Source of the DNA: Pseudoprimorskyibacter insulae
Lineage (GTDB): Bacteria > Pseudomonadota > Alphaproteobacteria > Rhodobacterales > Rhodobacteraceae
Length of the DNA stretch: 64,000 bases
NCBI RefSeq assembly: GCF_900302505.1
Contig: NZ_OMOJ01000003.1
Location: forward strand, 1 to 64,000
Direction: 5' to 3'
Each line of letters begins with the position of its first letter. The first letter of the stretch is position 1. Position numbers and translations under genes: made by a program. This document shows positions 13,967-56,607 of this stretch, one piece after another. The notes beneath the pieces were generated by a model that ran no database searches, had not been told where the DNA came from, and saw nothing but the letters and a program-made list of their open reading frames with translations.

Positions 13967-14051
13967 ACACAATGCCCGAGACCACAACGCCGTTTCTAAA
14001 ACATCACTCAGACTGGTCGTTGATCTTCCCAGTCGCGCGAAAGGAACTGAA

Positions 14052-15479
14052 ATGAACATGATGCCGTTCAACGACGACCATCTGTCGAAAGATGAATTGG
14101 CGCAACGTCAACAAGCGATAAAGGACATTGCCTTGCGTATCGGCAACCTGTCCGTCGCGATTGTTGGCGTGTCCGGTGAGGTCAGCGATACGGCCGCACG
14201 GGTTGATCGGCAAGCCGAAATTTTCCGCAATGTCGGCGAACAGGCCAATCAAATCGCCGAGAAAAGCCAAACCGTTCTGCACGCCGCCGATAGCGCGGTT
14301 CAGGTGTCCGAAGATGCCCGAACCAATGTCACCCACACATCAGACCGTCTGACGGCGATGGTTGGCGATGTGGCCGACCTGATCGACCGCGTGTCGCAGC
14401 TATTTGACAAGCTGGAAGGCTTGGATTCGGCGCTCAAAAGCGTTTCGGCCGTGTCGCGCGAGGTTGAGAATATTTCGCGCAAAACCAATCTTCTGTCGCT
14501 GAATGCGTCAATTGAGGCAGCGCGCGCAGGCCCTCACGGACGCGGGTTCATGGTCGTGGCGCAAGAGGTCAAAGACCTGTCCACCATGACCGGCGATGCA
14601 ACGGCTGAAATTCAGGAAACCATTTCTGAGCTGTCGGTCGAACTGTCTGGCCTGATTGATATGGCCAAGGGCGCGGTAAATCTGGCTGGCGGCATCCGGT
14701 CGCAAACCGACGGGATCGGTACCGAGATCACCGCCATTCCTGAAACGCTGTCGGGCATCGCATCTGCGCAGCGCGACATTCTAAGCGCATCGTCCGAGAT
14801 CAACACATCCGTCGATGATGTCCGCGGCAATATAAATGATCTGCGGCGCGATGTGGAACAGTCATCCGAAAGCCTTGGTCTGGCGCAGGAAAAGATGGCC
14901 TCGATCACCGAGGATTCAGAAGCCATCACCAGTATGACCGCGCGTTTGGGCGTGGAAACGCCGGACACCAAGTATATCAGTGCCGTTCAGCAAGCCGCGG
15001 AGCAGGTGTCCGCCGAATTTGAGCGCGCCGTACAGTCGGGCCGCGTTAGCATGCACGATCTGTTCGACACCAATTACACGCCGATTGCTGGCACCAATCC
15101 TCAGCAGGTGATGGCACGGTTTACCGAGTTCACCGACGCAATCCTACCCGTCATTCAGGAACCGATGTTGGATCTGGCGGCGGATGTGGTGTTCTGTGCA
15201 GCGGTCAATGTCGATGGCTACCTGCCGACGCACAACCGCAAGTTCTCGATGCCACAAATGCCCAGCGATCCGGGCTGGAACGCATCCTACAGCCGCAACC
15301 GCCGGATCTTTAACGACCGCGTCGGACTGGCGGCAGGCAAAAGCAAGCGCCCCTTCCTGCTGCAAGCCTATCGCCGCGATATGGGCAACGGCACGTTCAT
15401 CCTGATGAAGGATGTCTCGGCCCCGATCGTGGTCAAAGGACGCCACTGGGGCGGTTTGCGCCTGGCCTACAAAGCATAA
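14052..15479 (+). CDS. Soluble chemoreceptor with N-terminal signalling domain
   Basis: A 475-residue cytoplasmic protein with no signal peptide or membrane helix. The coiled-coil MCP signalling hairpin occupies roughly residues 20-330, with its tip at about 140-175 ([20 protein letters not shown]). The C-terminal 130 residues form a separate domain ([48 protein letters not shown]-like end [13 protein letters not shown]) that looks like a sensory domain of the Cache/PAS kind. Order is therefore reversed compared with usual receptors. The ATG at 14052 follows AAGGA. A sigma-54 promoter lies upstream and a strong terminator follows. Confidence 0.85.
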
Positions 15480-20161: not shown

Positions 20162-20875
20162 TTATGCGGATTTCTTTTCGATCAGATCCCGCAGACGGAA
20201 AATCGCCGCCTTCTTGATCTGAGACACGCGGCCAGTGGTCACCTCGAGCACGGCGGCGATTTCGTAGACGTTCATTTCCTCGACATAGTATAGCTGAAGC
20301 ACCAGCGCCTCGCGCTCGGGCAGCTCTTCCAGCGCCTCGCGCAGCAGTCGCTTCATATCGTTCTGTTCAAGAAGGTCTTCTTGCGTGGGCGTGCGATCGC
20401 TGAACAGGATCGAATGATCGCTATAAACCTCATCAAGCGATTGAAGCTGGTTGACCTGAAACCGGGCCTCCCATTCCTTCAACTCGGGGACGGTCATTTC
20501 CAGTTCGGCGGCGATTTCTTCAGTCTCGGGCCTGCGCCCCAGCTTATGTTCCAGCGTCCGCTGCACCTTGGCCGCCTTCTGGCGCATGGTGATCGTGGCG
20601 CGGCACAGGTTGGAATTGCGCCGAAGCAGATCGACGATAGATCCACGAATGCGAATGGACGCGTAAGAGGCAAAGCTGACACCGTCGCGCACATTATAGC
20701 GCTGCGAGGCATCGACCAGCCCCAGATACCCTGCCTGAAGCAGGTCTTCGATCTCGGCGAATTTGCCAACGCGGCCTTGGAAATGCCAGGCGATGCGCTG
20801 CACCAGGTGCATATGCTCTTCCACCAGCTTTTCCGGTTTCAGTGCCTGCTGTTCGTATGATCGCGGGATCATCAT
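20162..20875 (-). CDS. fliA: Flagellar sigma factor sigma-28
   Basis: A 237-residue sigma factor of the FliA type. Region 2 shows EDLLQAGYLGLVDASQRY and the -10 recognition segment FASYASIRIRGSIVDLLR. Region 4 shows LEELPEREALVLQLYYVEEMNVYEIA with the helix-turn-helix TTGRVSQIKKAAIFRLR. It directs RNA polymerase to late flagellar promoters such as those proposed here for fliC, fliD and fliS, and is held by the FlgM encoded at 26871. Its ATG overlaps the flhF-like stop (ATGA), so it is the last gene of the flhA-flhF-fliA unit driven by the sigma-54 promoter at 24314. Confidence 0.93.
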   Translation of the reverse strand: MMIPRSYEQQALKPEKLVEEHMHLVQRIAWHFQGRVGKFAEIEDLLQAGYLGLVDASQRYNVRDGVSFASYASIRIRGSIVDLLRRNSNLCRATITMRQKAAKVQRTLEHKLGRRPETEEIAAELEMTVPELKEWEARFQVNQLQSLDEVYSDHSILFSDRTPTQEDLLEQNDMKRLLREALEELPEREALVLQLYYVEEMNVYEIAAVLEVTTGRVSQIKKAAIFRLRDLIEKKSA

Positions 20876-24427: not shown

Positions 24428-24964
24428 ATGACACGTCTTCCACTCATCCGCGCAGGGGCCGGGCTTGCCATTGTCACGGCGCTTGGCGCTTGTATGTCAC
24501 AACAAGCGCAGCAGGCTTTGCCACCTGCCCCCACGCCCACCGCCAAGGCCGTCGCCCAGATCAAGGATGACGTGAACGCCATGCATGCCGACAGCGCTCT
24601 GCCGCCGGTTCTGGCCGCGCCGAAATACGTGCCGGTCGAACTCAAGGGGCTTGGGTTTTCACAGGTGTCCGCCCAACCGGGCAAAACACTGAACGAAAAG
24701 CGCCTGATGGCGATCCGCGCCGCCCGGCTTGAGGCGATGCGCGATCTGGTCGAACAGGTGCACGGCATTCATCTGACCGCCGACACGACGATCCGCGATG
24801 CGTCCGTCACCAATGACCACATTCGCGGCATCGTCGAAGGTGAATTGCGCGGCGCGCGGACCTTGCGCATCTCGCCCAAGGATGAGGACACCTTCACCGT
24901 CGAACTGGCGCTGGACGCCGACACTGTGCGCTACATTCTGCGTGCGGTGCGCATGGGGGTTTGA
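24428..24964 (+). CDS. flgP: Outer-membrane flagellar lipoprotein FlgP (LPP20 family)
   Basis: A 178-residue lipoprotein with lipobox LGAC at Cys22. The C-terminal half has the FlgP/LPP20 pattern KRLMAIRAARLEAMRDLVEQ followed by VHGIHL, and the SVTNDHIRGIVEGELRGA segment. FlgP forms an outer-membrane-associated disk around the flagellar L-ring in Vibrio, Campylobacter and Fla1-type systems, and is needed for assembly in R. sphaeroides. The ATG has GAGG five bases upstream. The operon continues with flgT and flgA. Confidence 0.88.
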   Translation: MTRLPLIRAGAGLAIVTALGACMSQQAQQALPPAPTPTAKAVAQIKDDVNAMHADSALPPVLAAPKYVPVELKGLGFSQVSAQPGKTLNEKRLMAIRAARLEAMRDLVEQVHGIHLTADTTIRDASVTNDHIRGIVEGELRGARTLRISPKDEDTFTVELALDADTVRYILRAVRMGV

Positions 24965-24967
24965 TCG

Positions 24968-26104
24968 ATGGAAGAACCCCGCTGGAAATCCGCGTTACGC
25001 CGCTTCTTGGCGATTTTGGCTTGGGCTGGCTGCATGACAATGGCGGTCTTTTCGACCCAGGCGCATTCTGCCACGCAAAAGCCCCTGTGGATTGTCGCCA
25101 GCGGGCATTCTTTCGTGTCCGGTCAAAACGACACCGACAGCGCCCGCCACCGCGCCTTGGCCGAGGCGCTGATTGCCGCCGGTCTGGCGGGCGGAACCGA
25201 ACTTGCGGGCTATAGCGCCATGGGGATGGGCCATATCACCGGCGATTTCCTGATCGCGCGGCCCACCGGAAAAATCCTGCGCTATGAAATCCGCTCGGCC
25301 AGGCTGGACCGAAGCCAATGGACGGTTGAAGTGCGGGCGCTGGTTGGACCGGCGCCCGATCTGGGCTGCGCCCCGCGCCGCACCTTGGTGCTGAGCGCCG
25401 AGCCTCCGCGGATCAATGTATCGCCGCAAGCCCCCGCATGGACGGAACAAATTGCCAGCGAGGCGGCGAAAGACCTATACGATATCATCCGCCGCCATCC
25501 CGCGTTTGAGCTGGAGCGCATTGCCACCAGTTTCGCGCCGTCCAATTCGCCCATTCGGGCGGACATGAGCTATTTGAATCTGACGCGCGGCACCGTTCGT
25601 TCGACGCCGGGCGATCATCTGTTCAGACCGGAATTCCGTGTAGATGCAATTGCTTCTGGAAGCGGCTACACCCTTCAGTTGACCGCCGATCTGAGCTTTA
25701 CCGAACCCTCGGGCCGCACCCTGCGCCGCAAGATCGTGCGCACCGCGCCGATGCCGCAAGGGTTGACGATGGATGCCACCCTAGGGCGTGGCCGCACTGC
25801 CGCAACCACGAAACTTACCAACAACTTACGCCGCGACATGAATGAAGCGCTTGACCTTGTGGCCTGTGAGCCGCCCCGCGCGCGCCTGACCCAGGATGGC
25901 CGCCGCCTGACGGTGCCAATTGGGCGCAAGCACGGGCTGCGCCAGACACATCTGGCCTTCATCGAGACCCGCGACAGCGCCTTTGATGTGCTTGAAATCG
26001 TTAACCTTCAGAACGGCACAGCCGAGCTGCGCCCGCTTGATCCCACCCGTCCGGTCCCGTCCTTCGCCGGAAAGACCGTTGAATTTCTGGAGGGTTTCCG
26101 GTGA
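24968..26104 (+). CDS. flgT: Flagellar H-ring protein FlgT-like
   Basis: A 378-residue exported protein (signal helix at about 12-35). The region after the signal (ASGHSFVSGQNDTDSARHRA, then LAEALIAAGLAGGTELAGYS) matches the FlgT N-terminal domain pattern of a small residue-rich strand followed by an AR-rich helix; middle and C-terminal domains are diverged. In Vibrio FlgT builds the H-ring around the basal body, and in R. sphaeroides a distant homologue is required for rotation and contacts MotB. The position between flgP and flgA supports the call. It overlaps flgA by four bases. Confidence 0.8.
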   Translation: MEEPRWKSALRRFLAILAWAGCMTMAVFSTQAHSATQKPLWIVASGHSFVSGQNDTDSARHRALAEALIAAGLAGGTELAGYSAMGMGHITGDFLIARPTGKILRYEIRSARLDRSQWTVEVRALVGPAPDLGCAPRRTLVLSAEPPRINVSPQAPAWTEQIASEAAKDLYDIIRRHPAFELERIATSFAPSNSPIRADMSYLNLTRGTVRSTPGDHLFRPEFRVDAIASGSGYTLQLTADLSFTEPSGRTLRRKIVRTAPMPQGLTMDATLGRGRTAATTKLTNNLRRDMNEALDLVACEPPRARLTQDGRRLTVPIGRKHGLRQTHLAFIETRDSAFDVLEIVNLQNGTAELRPLDPTRPVPSFAGKTVEFLEGFR

Positions 26105-27671: not shown

Positions 27672-28301
27672 CTAATCGGGGCAACTGACCGGGCGCACAT
27701 CCGACGGCACGCGGCCGCACCATTCGACAAACCGCGCCTTGGCATCGGCCTGCGCTGCGGTGCGCTCTTCGGTCGTCAGCTCCATCGACATGCTGTCGCG
27801 CAAGGCCGCGCTATATTCCACGCCAAAGGCTGCCGCCACGCTGAACCACGCCATTGCGGCGGGCTTGTTCGCGGGTTCGGCCAGTTGCGCATGAACGCGG
27901 CCAATACCCATAAAACTATGCACTCGGCCCTTTTCGGCCTCGGTCGCCAGATCGCCCAGCAGACGGTTGACCACGCTTTCGCGTGCCTCGTCCGTCAGGC
28001 GGCGGTCAAGATAATCGGTTACGGGTATGGCACGTTTTTCACCGCCCAAACGGCCCCGCCATGCCCAATAGAAGGCCTCGGCATCGTCTTGGGGCGTGCC
28101 CTGCCCCTTGGCGTATAGAACGGCCAGATTGGTCTGCGCGCCAGCACTGCCAGCGCGCGCCAGATCATGAAACAAAACAACCGCCCGCGCGGAATCGCCG
28201 TTTCGCGCTGCGTTCAACGCGGCCTGAAACCCTTCTGCCGCAGCCAACGAGGTGCCGGCCACGCATGCGATTATTCCTGTTGCGCGGGCAATCCGTTTCA
28301 T
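27672..28301 (-). CDS. Secreted Sel1-repeat protein, possible MotX-like motor accessory
   Basis: A 209-residue exported protein (signal peptide about 1-22). Residues about 25-85 contain Sel1/TPR-like repeats (LARAGSAGAQTNLAVLYAKG, QGTPQDDAEAFYWAWRGRL), with a further helical repeat at AMAWFSVAAAFGVEY. Sel1-repeat periplasmic proteins include Vibrio MotX, which joins PomB to the basal-body T-ring. The genome's FlgT, FlgP and PomAB-like stator make a comparable role plausible, but this is inference. It overlaps the upstream gene by four bases and shares a sigma-28-like promoter. Confidence 0.65.
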   Translation of the reverse strand: MKRIARATGIIACVAGTSLAAAEGFQAALNAARNGDSARAVVLFHDLARAGSAGAQTNLAVLYAKGQGTPQDDAEAFYWAWRGRLGGEKRAIPVTDYLDRRLTDEARESVVNRLLGDLATEAEKGRVHSFMGIGRVHAQLAEPANKPAAMAWFSVAAAFGVEYSAALRDSMSMELTTEERTAAQADAKARFVEWCGRVPSDVRPVSCPD

Positions 28302-28732
28302 TTTCCTGCCATCATCACCAATTGTAGATACAGCAGCCGCCGACGGCGACCATCCAGCGTGCGTTCATAGACCACGACGCGTTGGCGTTCGCTGGCCGTG
28401 GTTTCGATCACGATGCTGATATTGTCGGGTAGGAACACATTGTGCCGCGCCAGAAGCTCTAGCGGGTCTTGCATCATCGCCGCGCTGAACGTCGGATCGA
28501 TCCAGCTTCGCGCCAAGGCGCGGCCAAGGATGTCCGGCAGGTGCTTGATGACCTTTTCCGTGTCCCGCAATGTCGTCCGGCGGCGCACGAGCCCCCAGTC
28601 GTCATGCAAATTCGTATCGTCGCCGCCGTCATATTCGGCGTTGCGTTCATATTCTGCGCGTCCTGCGCTGCTTCGTCGCTGTGTCAGCCGTTTTATAGCT
28701 GGAACAAGCGCTGTGCCGGCTCCGAAATTCAT
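28298..28732 (-). CDS. Nitrile-hydratase-leader-like (NHLP) domain protein of unknown function
   Basis: A 144-residue protein. The C-terminal 80 residues align by eye with the N-terminal domain of nitrile hydratase alpha and NHLP leader peptides: ARSWIDPTFSAAMMQDPLEL, then LARHNVFLPDNISIVIE, matching W-x-DP-x-F, DP, L, P and V-V-E positions. The nitrile hydratase Cys cluster is absent and no precursor core follows. The N-terminal third is basic and low in pattern. The ATG at 28732 follows GGGGAT; a GTG at 28747 is also in frame. It is first in an operon with the Sel1 protein, behind a sigma-28-like promoter, so a late flagellar role is likely although undefined. Confidence 0.6.
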   Translation of the reverse strand: MNFGAGTALVPAIKRLTQRRSSAGRAEYERNAEYDGGDDTNLHDDWGLVRRRTTLRDTEKVIKHLPDILGRALARSWIDPTFSAAMMQDPLELLARHNVFLPDNISIVIETTASERQRVVVYERTLDGRRRRLLYLQLVMMAGK

Positions 28733-28760
28733 GACCAAGATCCCCACTATCTGACCATAG

Positions 28761-28782
28761 AGCCCGGCGGGATTGCCGGGCT
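28761..28782. other. Stem-loop in leader of the 28298 operon
   Basis: Eight-base-pair inverted repeat AGCCCGGC / GCCGGGCT with a six-base loop. It lies between the sigma-28-like promoter and the start codon on the minus strand and has no T-run, so it would be a 5' leader hairpin. Confidence 0.5.
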
Positions 28783-28794
28783 TACACGGATATC

Positions 28795-28819
28795 AACGGC
28801 AGGAACGCTAATCGTTTTA
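28795..28819 (-). promoter_or_regulatory. Sigma-28-like promoter of the 28298-27672 operon
   Basis: On the minus strand TAAA-N15-GCCGTTGA, nearly the same as the fliS promoter at 30597-30621 (both TAAA-N16-CCGTTGAT). It resembles the FliA consensus TAAA-N15-GCCGATAA. Confidence 0.65.
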
Positions 28820-28897
28820 GACAAAACTCTCTTTGGATACGCTTTTTTCAACATTTGACAACGAGCAACCAAAGAGCCGTTGTCATACCCTTGGGAC

Positions 28898-29416
28898 ATG
28901 ACCTCTACTCCAGGATCCATGCGTCTCGGGATCGCAGCCATTCCAACCCTACTGCTCCCCGTGTTGTTCTCTCTGGGCGCATGGTATTCCTTGAAGATGC
29001 CAGTCGATGTGCTGGCCCCGCCAGAACCGGCGATCGAGGAGGAGGCTGTTCCCACCGAAGACGAAGCAGCGCCGCCCGTGGACACGCGGGTGTATCTGCC
29101 TGTCATCATCCCGTTGAAAGCCAGCCTGCCTGATTTCGGCGGCACCTTGATGGTGTCGATTGGGCTTGCCCTGCGCGGCGATGCCAGCAAAGCGCTGATC
29201 GACCAGCTTAAGGATAAGCCGGAACCGCTGATTTCACCTTTGGGGAATGTATTGCTGGATACGGCATCTACCGTTGACCCGGCCCAAGGCTGGAATGCCT
29301 TGCGCAAAGCCCTGCCCCAGGCGCTGATGGATGATCTGAACACCCGTGTTGCTGATTTGGACGACAGCGCCCCGATCCTCGAAGTTCTCATCATGGAGTT
29401 CCGTATCGGCGGATGA
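28898..29416 (+). CDS. FliL-like single-pass membrane protein
   Basis: About 172 residues: short cytoplasmic start, one membrane helix (AAIPTLLLPVLFSLGAWY), an acidic/proline-rich linker, and a periplasmic domain with the FliL-like pattern YLPVIIPLKASLPDFGGTLM, ISPLGNVLLD, ALRKALPQALMDDLN and final LEVLIMEFRIGG. FliL-type proteins ring the stator. A second, canonical FliL is encoded at 50507, so this would be a paralogue or a MotF-like rotation factor. The start is uncertain: TTG at 28880 and ATG at 28898 or 28919 are possible and none has a good ribosome site. Confidence 0.55.
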   Translation: MTSTPGSMRLGIAAIPTLLLPVLFSLGAWYSLKMPVDVLAPPEPAIEEEAVPTEDEAAPPVDTRVYLPVIIPLKASLPDFGGTLMVSIGLALRGDASKALIDQLKDKPEPLISPLGNVLLDTASTVDPAQGWNALRKALPQALMDDLNTRVADLDDSAPILEVLIMEFRIGG

Positions 29417-29465: not shown

Positions 29466-29624
29466 ATGCACCATCTAAGCACCATCGCCAATCGCCTGAT
29501 GCAGCGCCATGCCTCGCTTGAGGATGTCGCCGTGCAGACGGTGTATTTTGACGATGACGGTCAGGCCCATCCCGGCAAACCTACTTCGCTTGCCGCGTTT
29601 TTGCATCAGATGGTGCTGCATTAG
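29466..29624 (+). CDS. 52-residue histidine-rich protein driven by sigma-54
   Basis: A small ORF starting MHHLSTIANRLMQRHASLED and ending FLHQMVLH, with seven His residues, no membrane helix and a VQTVYFDDDGQ strand-like centre. GGAG lies six bases before the ATG and an excellent sigma-54 promoter lies 45 bases upstream. The following genes are on the other strand, and its last 44 bases overlap the end of the convergent gene at 29581. It appears to be a monocistronic member of the flagellar RpoN regulon. I do not recognise a family. Confidence 0.65.
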   Translation: MHHLSTIANRLMQRHASLEDVAVQTVYFDDDGQAHPGKPTSLAAFLHQMVLH

Positions 29625-29826: not shown

Positions 29827-30158
29827 CAGCCTTTACCTTTCCCTTTCCCCTTCGAATACGCCAGATAAACCCCGCGCTTGCGCTGCGTCTTTTGAACAGC
29901 CTCTTGGGTTTTCTGAAGAACGGCCGCCGCATTGCGAACGGACACAAGCGCGCGTTGCAGCGCTTCGACCCGGTCTTGCGGCGCGTCGCCAAACTGATCT
30001 TCACCGATCAGGGCAATTACAGCGTTGCGTATGGCATGATCCAGACGACTGACGTCTTCCAGACGCCCCTCATCCACGGCCCGAGCCAGCTCTTGGCAGA
30101 GACGTTCAAGGCGTTCTGTTGCGGCGGCTTCTGACATGAGTGCGATGCACAGGCTCAC
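29826..30158 (-). CDS. Small helical protein downstream of fliS, FliT-like candidate
   Basis: A 110-residue protein, nearly all helical (LERLCQELARAVDEGRLEDV, VEALQRALVSVRNAAAVLQK), ending in a basic GKGKGKG tail. The size and place directly after fliS fit FliT, the FliD chaperone, but sequence identity to FliT is not recognisable. The GTG at 30158 overlaps the fliS stop (GTGA); an ATG at 30137 is an alternative start. Confidence 0.55.
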   Translation of the reverse strand: MSLCIALMSEAAATERLERLCQELARAVDEGRLEDVSRLDHAIRNAVIALIGEDQFGDAPQDRVEALQRALVSVRNAAAVLQKTQEAVQKTQRKRGVYLAYSKGKGKGKG

Positions 30159-30553
30159 TTGCCCTGCCCCTTAACCTGCGGCCCGATCCCGCGCCACGCT
30201 TCCAGAATATCGGCGATGGAATCCCGCGCTTCGACCAGCAATGCGCTCTCGTCCTTGCGGATCGAGGCCAAAACCTGCTGGCGGGCGAATTCATACAGCT
30301 GCATCAGCAATTCGGCGATATCCGCGCCGCGCTCCATGTCCAGGCTGGACTGAAGGATGTAGATCGCGGTCAGCGCACGGCTGCTGTGTTCCTCGGGGGG
30401 AAGGCGGTCTTTGGCGCGGGCTGCGACCATCACGTCCAGCGACCGGTGCAGCTCGCGCAAAGTAACCGAAATGACCTCATGCGGGTCGTCGATCCGCGGG
30501 TGGCCGACAGCTTCGGCCTGGCGGTATCTGGAGCGAGCAAGCGATATCGTCAT
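30155..30553 (-). CDS. fliS: Flagellin export chaperone FliS
   Basis: A 132-residue helical protein with FliS hallmarks: the N-terminal RSRYRQAEAVG, and RALTAIYILQSSLDMERGAD followed by LLMQLYEFARQQVLASI and a final ADILEAWRGI. It binds the flagellin C-terminus in the cytoplasm and hands it to FlhA. The ATG at 30553 has GGAG seven bases upstream. A sigma-28-like promoter lies just upstream, matching the late class of fliS. Confidence 0.9.
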   Translation of the reverse strand: MTISLARSRYRQAEAVGHPRIDDPHEVISVTLRELHRSLDVMVAARAKDRLPPEEHSSRALTAIYILQSSLDMERGADIAELLMQLYEFARQQVLASIRKDESALLVEARDSIADILEAWRGIGPQVKGQGK

Positions 30554-55927: not shown

Positions 55928-56509
55928 CTACATCATCGGCAGAACAGTGACACCTGTCGCAATGCGGCAGGCCCAATGGTCGATGTGCTGGGCGAAGTAT
56001 TCACGGATTTCCGGGTGGGATGCCGCCAAGGCACGGATCACCCGGTCTTTGGGGGAAGCGGGCGGATTGGACTGTTCGATCAGCATCCACGGCTCTCCGT
56101 CCACGCGGATTTCGGTGCCGGTGTCCGATACGATCCGCGCCGACCAATAGGTGCCCAGCGTGTCAAAACGCACTTCTTCGTTCAGGTTGTAATCGCCCGA
56201 GATGCGCACAGCATGTGTGTTCAGGAACCGGTCCAGAACGCGCCCGTCGCGCATCAGAATATCCGCGCCAATCCGGGTCCAGCCATCGGCGACCGACCGG
56301 TTCAAACGGATCCATCCAGACCGGCCACTGATCGAAAACGCCAAAGTCGGCGGGGTTTCATCCGGATCATCGACCTTTTCATAGGCAATCTCGAAGGATG
56401 CACCGCCCAGCTTCAGACAAGCGAACGGGGCTTCGGCCTGACAGCGTTCACGCTCTTGCAGCAAGGTCGCTTGGGCGTCGGTTACATGCGCATCGGTCAT
56501 ACGGATCAT
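55928..56509 (-). CDS. Uncharacterised protein between flhB and the motility genes
   Basis: A 193-residue soluble protein with a beta-rich middle (LAFSISGRSGWIRLNRSVAD, GTEIRVDGEPWMLIE) and a His/Trp/Cys-containing end (QHIDHWACRIATGVTVL). No signal peptide and no recognised domain. It is alone on the minus strand within a plus-strand motility block, and no good ribosome site precedes the ATG, so the start may be wrong by a few codons. Confidence 0.5.
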   Translation of the reverse strand: MIRMTDAHVTDAQATLLQERERCQAEAPFACLKLGGASFEIAYEKVDDPDETPPTLAFSISGRSGWIRLNRSVADGWTRIGADILMRDGRVLDRFLNTHAVRISGDYNLNEEVRFDTLGTYWSARIVSDTGTEIRVDGEPWMLIEQSNPPASPKDRVIRALAASHPEIREYFAQHIDHWACRIATGVTVLPMM

Positions 56510-56607
56510 GGGGTCGCTTTCTGGATGAATTGGCAGTCCCTTTGCTGAACGGCAAATCCGCGCCGAAACTTAGGCCTTGGCGCAAACATTCCGGCAAGAT
56601 CCGGGAC

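Follow-up and report, generated by a model that had tools for sequence, protein, structure and literature searches.

In Vibrio, the flagellum combines an H-ring with a T-ring of MotX and MotY; MotX is a small exported Sel1 protein of the late sigma-28 class, and the class IV genes of V. cholerae include motX together with stator genes (PMC6504787). The Fla1 flagellum of Rhodobacter sphaeroides, a model of one-way, stop-start rotation, has a motor with an H-ring and without a known T-ring. Given that motX and motY are reported to be missing from Fla1 although the H-ring is present (PMC7277832), the position of MotX/MotY is vacant in this flagellum. In R. sphaeroides MotA and MotB belong to class III, FlgT has been proposed to have taken over the role of MotX/MotY, and the plug of MotB is already a target of MotF and FliL (PMC7277832). 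The gene pair described below is conserved and has not been studied; found with this flagellum in Rhodobacteraceae, in SAR116 and in further groups, it fills an evident gap. In the literature covered by our search, outside which lie the MotF and FlgT papers of J. Bacteriol., nothing was found on NHLP or Sel1 proteins in this flagellum, and the two proteins described here are probably unrecognised flagellar components.

One of the two proteins resembles the NHLP leaders of proteusins and the alpha subunit of nitrile hydratase, whereas the other consists of Sel1 repeats. RiPP precursors are recognised by a Gly-Gly site that is followed by a variable core (Haft et al. 2010, PMC2887384), and NHLP leaders are bound by modifying enzymes via folded protein-protein docking surfaces (PMC12455567).

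The gene pair and its flagellar surroundings

The window (the whole stretch of 64,000 nucleotides that was analysed; all coordinates refer to its forward strand) contains an extensive cluster of flagellar and chemotaxis genes such as is known from R. sphaeroides Fla1. The cluster includes FliA (20162-20875), FlgP (24428-24964), a FlgT-like protein (24968-26104) and FliS (30155-30553), along with FlhF, FlhA, FlgA, FlgM, a DUF2802 protein, CheA, FliE-FlhB, RpoN, FliC and a PomA-like MotA with MotB; some of these names rest on the reading of translations. Located here is an NHLP/nitrile-hydratase-alpha-like protein of 144 amino acids (28298..28732, minus strand), recognised from its ORF, a family profile and an AlphaFold2 model, and next to it an exported Sel1-repeat protein of 209 amino acids (27672..28301, minus strand), recognised from its ORF, profile and structure model. 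The NHLP-like ORF as listed has a GTG start at 28747, giving 149 amino acids, but translation more probably begins with the ATG at 28732, since this codon is preceded by GGGGA at a distance of 8 nucleotides and the NHLP-like relative in locus L010 begins in the same alignment column. The two genes share the four bases ATGA (28298..28301, minus strand), and this overlap presumably couples their translation. The earlier note on this DNA had described the pair with its four-base overlap, and both ORFs and the ATGA are indeed there. The same overlap recurs in 50 of the 80 related loci and the promoter box discussed below in 40 of 78 (0.5 expected), and therefore ORFs, overlap and box are not a product of chance.

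A scan of genome contigs with the single sequence gave no match, whereas an alignment-based scan succeeded: searching GTDB genomes with a six-member profile yielded 174 related stretches, of which 80 loci were kept. They represent many Rhodobacteraceae (among them Roseovarius, Marivita, Donghicola, Thalassococcus, Tabrizicola and Cereibacter) as well as SAR116/Puniceispirillum, the PS1 clade and MAGs of Rhodobiaceae. A relative of the Sel1 gene is matched downstream and in the same direction in 77 of the 80 NHLP-like loci; a stricter automatic ORF test recognises the Sel1 partner in 66 loci, 50 of which have the four-base overlap. Where a locus is long enough to tell, it nearly always lies among the genes for FlgP, FlgT, FlgA, FlgM, FlhA and FliA, for FlgB-J, for MotAB or for RpoN. 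The flanks correspond to FlgM-FlgA-FlgT-FlgP-FlhA-FliA in most loci, to FlgB-FlgJ in some and to MotAB elsewhere, and in SAR116 and the PS1 clade a divergent FlgF/G-type gene is found in the flank. As the flanking flagellar genes vary, the pair stays together through a changing neighbourhood, nearly always within a flagellar cluster, and the expected conservation near flagellar genes, which are of the Fla1 type, has been borne out. Weak matches, for example L014 and L015, were rejected as instances of this pair, having neither a Sel1 partner nor flagellar genes nearby.

Two loci, L039 and L072, carry the NHLP-like gene downstream of a FliL-like gene on the same strand and without an adjoining Sel1 gene, the place of which is taken by the frame of a kinase-like membrane protein (downstream of 10297). 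Elsewhere in these two genomes, Sel1 searches gave weak generic matches only. A second, diverged NHLP-like gene in genome G362 (L146 9542-9934, plus strand) is located directly 3' of a flagellin gene, and it too is without a Sel1 gene. The two genomes that have no Sel1 neighbour and the extra copy beside flagellin mean that the NHLP-like protein does not have to depend on Sel1 for its action; taken together, these three cases speak for a function of its own, perhaps in export or in building the filament.

The late-class promoter and the type of flagellum

Upstream of the NHLP-like gene lies a putative sigma-28 (FliA)-type promoter, TAAA-N15-GCCGTTGA (28793..28819, minus strand), recognised by its consensus score and by its footprint in 40 of 78 loci. 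The box of the window, CTAAAACGATTAGCGTTCCTGCCGTTGA (28820-28793), fits the FliA promoter according to the consensus score and has the form CTAAA-N15-GCCGTT(GA) on the minus strand (28819-28793). When the footprint pattern TAA[ACG]-N15-[GA][CTA]CGTT was sought up to 150 bases upstream of the NHLP-like gene, the 40 occurrences compared with an expectation of 0.53, as calculated from the remaining sequence of these loci. In these loci the same box precedes fliS in 32 of 40 cases, flgM in 20 of 30 and flgP in 1 of 55, and it was found before none of the other flagellar genes tested; in the window it also stands ahead of flgM (26799) and fliS (30621). The exact form of the box is missing in many SAR116 and PS1 loci, and the fliC gene of the window has a related box with a 14-base spacer, which falls outside the 15-base pattern. 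This phylogenetic footprinting, drawn from sequence rather than transcripts, supports a FliA-dependent, late flagellar class for the NHLP-like/Sel1 pair. The late class had been proposed before, and it agrees with a box that is common to fliS and flgM and present before virtually none of the early genes. Late timing alone, however, does not indicate the motor, because fliS, flgM and the filament genes have the same promoter class.

Between the promoter and the NHLP-like gene, at the very start of the expected transcript, there is a perfect 8-bp inverted repeat, AGCCCGGC...GCCGGGCT (28761-28782, minus strand), which is without a T run. Further sigma-28-type boxes of the window are located at 56572 (minus strand), about 60 bases ahead of an uncharacterised gene (55928-56509), and at 13997 (plus strand), ahead of a gene that starts at 14052; the genes behind these two boxes are candidates for other late genes.

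Co-occurrence was analysed within the family to which the window belongs, with one genome for each genus and 149 genomes in all. Eight genomes have strong NHLP matches, and eight have strong matches to the PomA-type MotA of the window; 7 genomes have both, 1 has NHLP alone, 1 has MotA alone and 140 have neither (Fisher p 2.3e-10, uncorrected for phylogeny). FlgT is found in the same genomes of this sample as the NHLP-like gene. G030, the genome with MotA alone, has a Sel1 relative beside FlgB-E about 140 bases from the contig end, and therefore the NHLP-like gene would fall off the contig; in the NHLP-only genome (G496), the NHLP-like gene is at a contig end and the assembly is 81% complete. 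Many other genomes of the family have weak MotA matches only and are without the pair, which is consistent with these matches representing the other, CtrA-controlled flagellum. A sparse sample of 398 genomes across the phylum gave, beyond the window's own genome, one weak NHLP match only. A second, distant MotA-like frame (292 amino acids) is present in the genome of the window (G000 contig 16, 2135-2380) and suggests that the organism may also have a CtrA-type flagellum.

The flagellum that the pair accompanies is the horizontally acquired, FlgP/FlgT-bearing type (Fla1 of Cereibacter/Rhodobacter sphaeroides). Flagellar clusters of the fla2 type are often plasmid-borne. Names differ between authors: in PMC12363192 the C. 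sphaeroides cluster is the fla3 reference and fla1 is the archetypal, CtrA-type cluster, and the Fla1 of Camarena and colleagues appears to be the fla3 type in that naming.

Relationships of the two proteins

The single NHLP-like protein scores 19.8 bits against TIGR03793, below the curated cut-off of 50.9; at the level of the family, 68 of 71 members match this model at E<=0.01 (best 2.7e-8), and the family profile matches the nitrile hydratase alpha subunit 1v29 at E 8.2e-8 and the solved NHLP leader 8tb1 at E 5.1e-7. The AlphaFold2 model, which is confident at residues ~53-137 (block means 89-96) and disordered in the N-terminal third, consists of three helices followed by three strands. 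Foldseek gave no significant match for this model, and the top three rows of VIA-align include two proteusin precursors, the best-ranked 8tb1 (Z 4.8, rmsd 3.5, 67 aligned) and 9cjx (Z 4.5, rmsd 3.5, 74 aligned); these low values (Z under 8 is weak alone) carry weight only because the sequence agrees. Family profile and predicted fold together support a placement of the protein with NHLP leaders and nitrile hydratase alpha. The earlier note had claimed an NHLP-like domain that has neither a catalytic Cys cluster nor a core, and the structural comparison has left this likeness standing.

The protein of the window contains no Cys, the metal-binding motif CxxCSC is absent, and the alignment with 1v29 stops just ahead of this metal claw. 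What it has in common with nitrile hydratase alpha (TIGR01323, PF02979) is the ancestral domain as far as the strand that precedes the claw, but CxxCSC is missing and no beta-subunit gene was recognised near the NHLP-like gene. The proteusin NHLP leader (TIGR03793; 8tb1, 9cjx) has a homologous helix-helix-beta domain with the motif AWxDxxF...DPxxxLxxxxxxLPxxxxI, and the metal site is missing there as well. In contrast to that leader, the NHLP-like protein has no Gly-Gly cleavage site and no variable core after the domain; it ends instead in a near-invariant strand, LYLQLVMMAG[KR], which is a conserved part of the domain, and its gene has a flagellar context and predicted sigma-28 control. The protein is without a classical signal peptide, and 5 of 80 members lie above a simple hydrophobicity limit. 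Considering that NHLP leaders dock through protein surfaces, a role as a docking domain would be the natural expectation for the NHLP-like protein.

The N-terminus of the Sel1 protein is signal-peptide-like, as it is in 63 of 66 relatives according to a simple heuristic. The structure model is a ten-helix solenoid (pLDDT 94) that, when superposed on Sel1 repeats from unrelated proteins, fits to 1.2 A over ~80 residues, and the family profile matches a solved Sel1 protein at E 2.9e-43; the Sel1 Pfam score of the single protein, 28.5, is just below the cut-off of 30.7. Two Cys are located near the C-terminus, and a Cys pair is present in 40 of 66 relatives. Thus an exported Sel1 partner, as proposed earlier, agrees with both the N-terminus and the solenoid model, whereas the likeness to MotX that was proposed along with it has turned out to be that of any Sel1 protein. 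The MotX model NF047621 gives 13.3 bits against a cut-off of 330, and in the protein of the window the match is confined to a single Sel1 unit in a shifted register (protein 35-83, model 126-174). Among 53 Sel1 members, 13 match the MotX model, the best at 2.4e-6 and far under the cut-off. Many other Sel1 proteins rank above the solved MotX chains, which match the Sel1 family profile at E 0.005-0.008, and the MotX chain 8z5n has Foldseek rank 28 (E 0.2) and is absent from the best 50 of VIA-align, a low structural rank that excludes nothing. None of ten genomes has a MotX match above the cut-off, and MotY_N gave no match in ten pair-bearing genomes, a search made without a positive control. 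Because solved MotX ranks below many Sel1 proteins and the model matches are far under the cut-off, the protein is, judged by sequence comparison, a generic Sel1 protein outside the MotX family. The differences from Vibrio MotX/MotY include the absence of family-level similarity and of a MotY match, and the corresponding flagellum of R. sphaeroides is reported to be H+-driven.

Possible role of the pair

In our view it is very probable that the two genes constitute a late module dedicated to the flagellum. Whether it acts at the motor or stator, as in the earlier note's proposal of a motor accessory module, is an evenly balanced question; a stator role is nevertheless the best single guess, because it combines late FliA control, a periplasmic Sel1 protein, the association with FlgP/FlgT and the reported absence of MotX/MotY from R. 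sphaeroides Fla1. Once the hook is complete, FliA would make the NHLP-like and Sel1 proteins together with the filament genes. The periplasmic Sel1 solenoid would then bind the stator or the H-ring and help to recruit or activate MotA/MotB, as MotX/MotY do in Vibrio, and the NHLP-like protein would offer a folded docking surface for proteins where the motor or the export gate faces the cytoplasm. The FlgT/MotF/FliL assembly could include the Sel1 protein as one more member; that this protein works like MotX is suggested by analogy and is only tentatively put forward. The weakest step is the link of the NHLP-like protein, apparently cytoplasmic, to the exported Sel1 protein: since the two are seemingly in different compartments, a direct contact between them is conjectural.

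The promoter that the pair has in common with fliS and flgM, the distance of 1.5-2 kb to fliS in the window and in many relatives, and the extra NHLP-like copy that follows flagellin in G362 without a Sel1 gene could also belong to a pair that serves filament formation; in that case the NHLP-like protein would dock flagellin or other late export substrates in the cytoplasm, and the Sel1 protein would assist in the periplasm. However, FliS is already there as the dedicated flagellin chaperone, a chaperone would need no periplasmic Sel1 partner and most loci do not adjoin fliC, so that a filament role seems rather unlikely. It is improbable that the Sel1 protein is an ExoR- or SflA-like periplasmic sensor or inhibitor that signals what state the flagellum is in, its output in the cytoplasm being the NHLP-like protein. 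Although 20 of 53 Sel1 members match the ExoR model weakly and one of the higher-ranking structural matches is the Vibrio SflA periplasmic domain (Z 10.3, rmsd 3.0, 104 residues), this likeness is that of any Sel1/TPR protein, and no dedicated kinase or transmembrane partner is conserved beside the pair, the kinase-like frame being confined to L039 and L072.

A true, diverged MotX orthologue would account for the 13 members that match the MotX model, for sigma-28 control and for the similar length (209 and 211 amino acids), but with scores far under 330 bits, a match of one Sel1 unit out of register and MotX structures that rank under unrelated Sel1 proteins, such orthology is very improbable. 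Homology to NHLP leaders is what speaks for a RiPP precursor that is modified and exported. Against this stand the near-invariant LYLQLVMMAGK/R end in place of a Gly-Gly site and variable core, and neighbours of which the recognised ones are flagellar, with no maturation gene recognised among them; lacking metal cluster, Gly-Gly site and core, the NHLP-like protein is therefore not a RiPP precursor in our judgement, and the contrary is hardly credible. A late-class accessory module of the FlgP/FlgT flagellum thus remains the best explanation, and with the stator role included we give it about even chances. The more far-reaching proposal is that alphaproteobacteria of marine and freshwater habitats have turned the nitrile-hydratase-alpha/NHLP fold into a dedicated part of the flagellar motor, with the Sel1 protein replacing the missing MotX/MotY T-ring in the recruitment or activation of the stator; this is possible, but we hold it to be more doubtful than probable. 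If true, the NHLP fold is used beyond enzyme catalysis and RiPP biosynthesis.

As an accessory module, the pair can be compared with the rotation accessory proteins of the same bacterial group, namely MotF, FlgT and FliL of R. sphaeroides Fla1 and MotK/MotE of Fla2. As described, however, neither MotF, a 24-kDa membrane protein, nor MotK has NHLP or Sel1 character. MotK/MotE (PMC10954123) were rejected as identities of the pair, considering that they belong to Fla2 and that MotK is a large AMIN-domain protein.

A divergent FliL-like membrane protein is encoded beside the pair at 28880-29416 (plus strand); it has no Pfam match itself, and its relatives match FliL weakly (E 0.06-0.23). The gene adjoins the pair in many Rhodobacteraceae and has the same orientation as the NHLP-like gene in L039 and L072, and its product may be a third member of the module. 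MotF was rejected as its identity, because the described size and membrane segment of MotF (24 kDa, residues 54-74) differ. The FliL-like gene is followed on its 3' side by a conserved ORF of 52 amino acids (29466-29624, plus strand), which belongs to no known family; a weak relative is present in L011, and an ORF of 53 amino acids is found at a similar place in L010.
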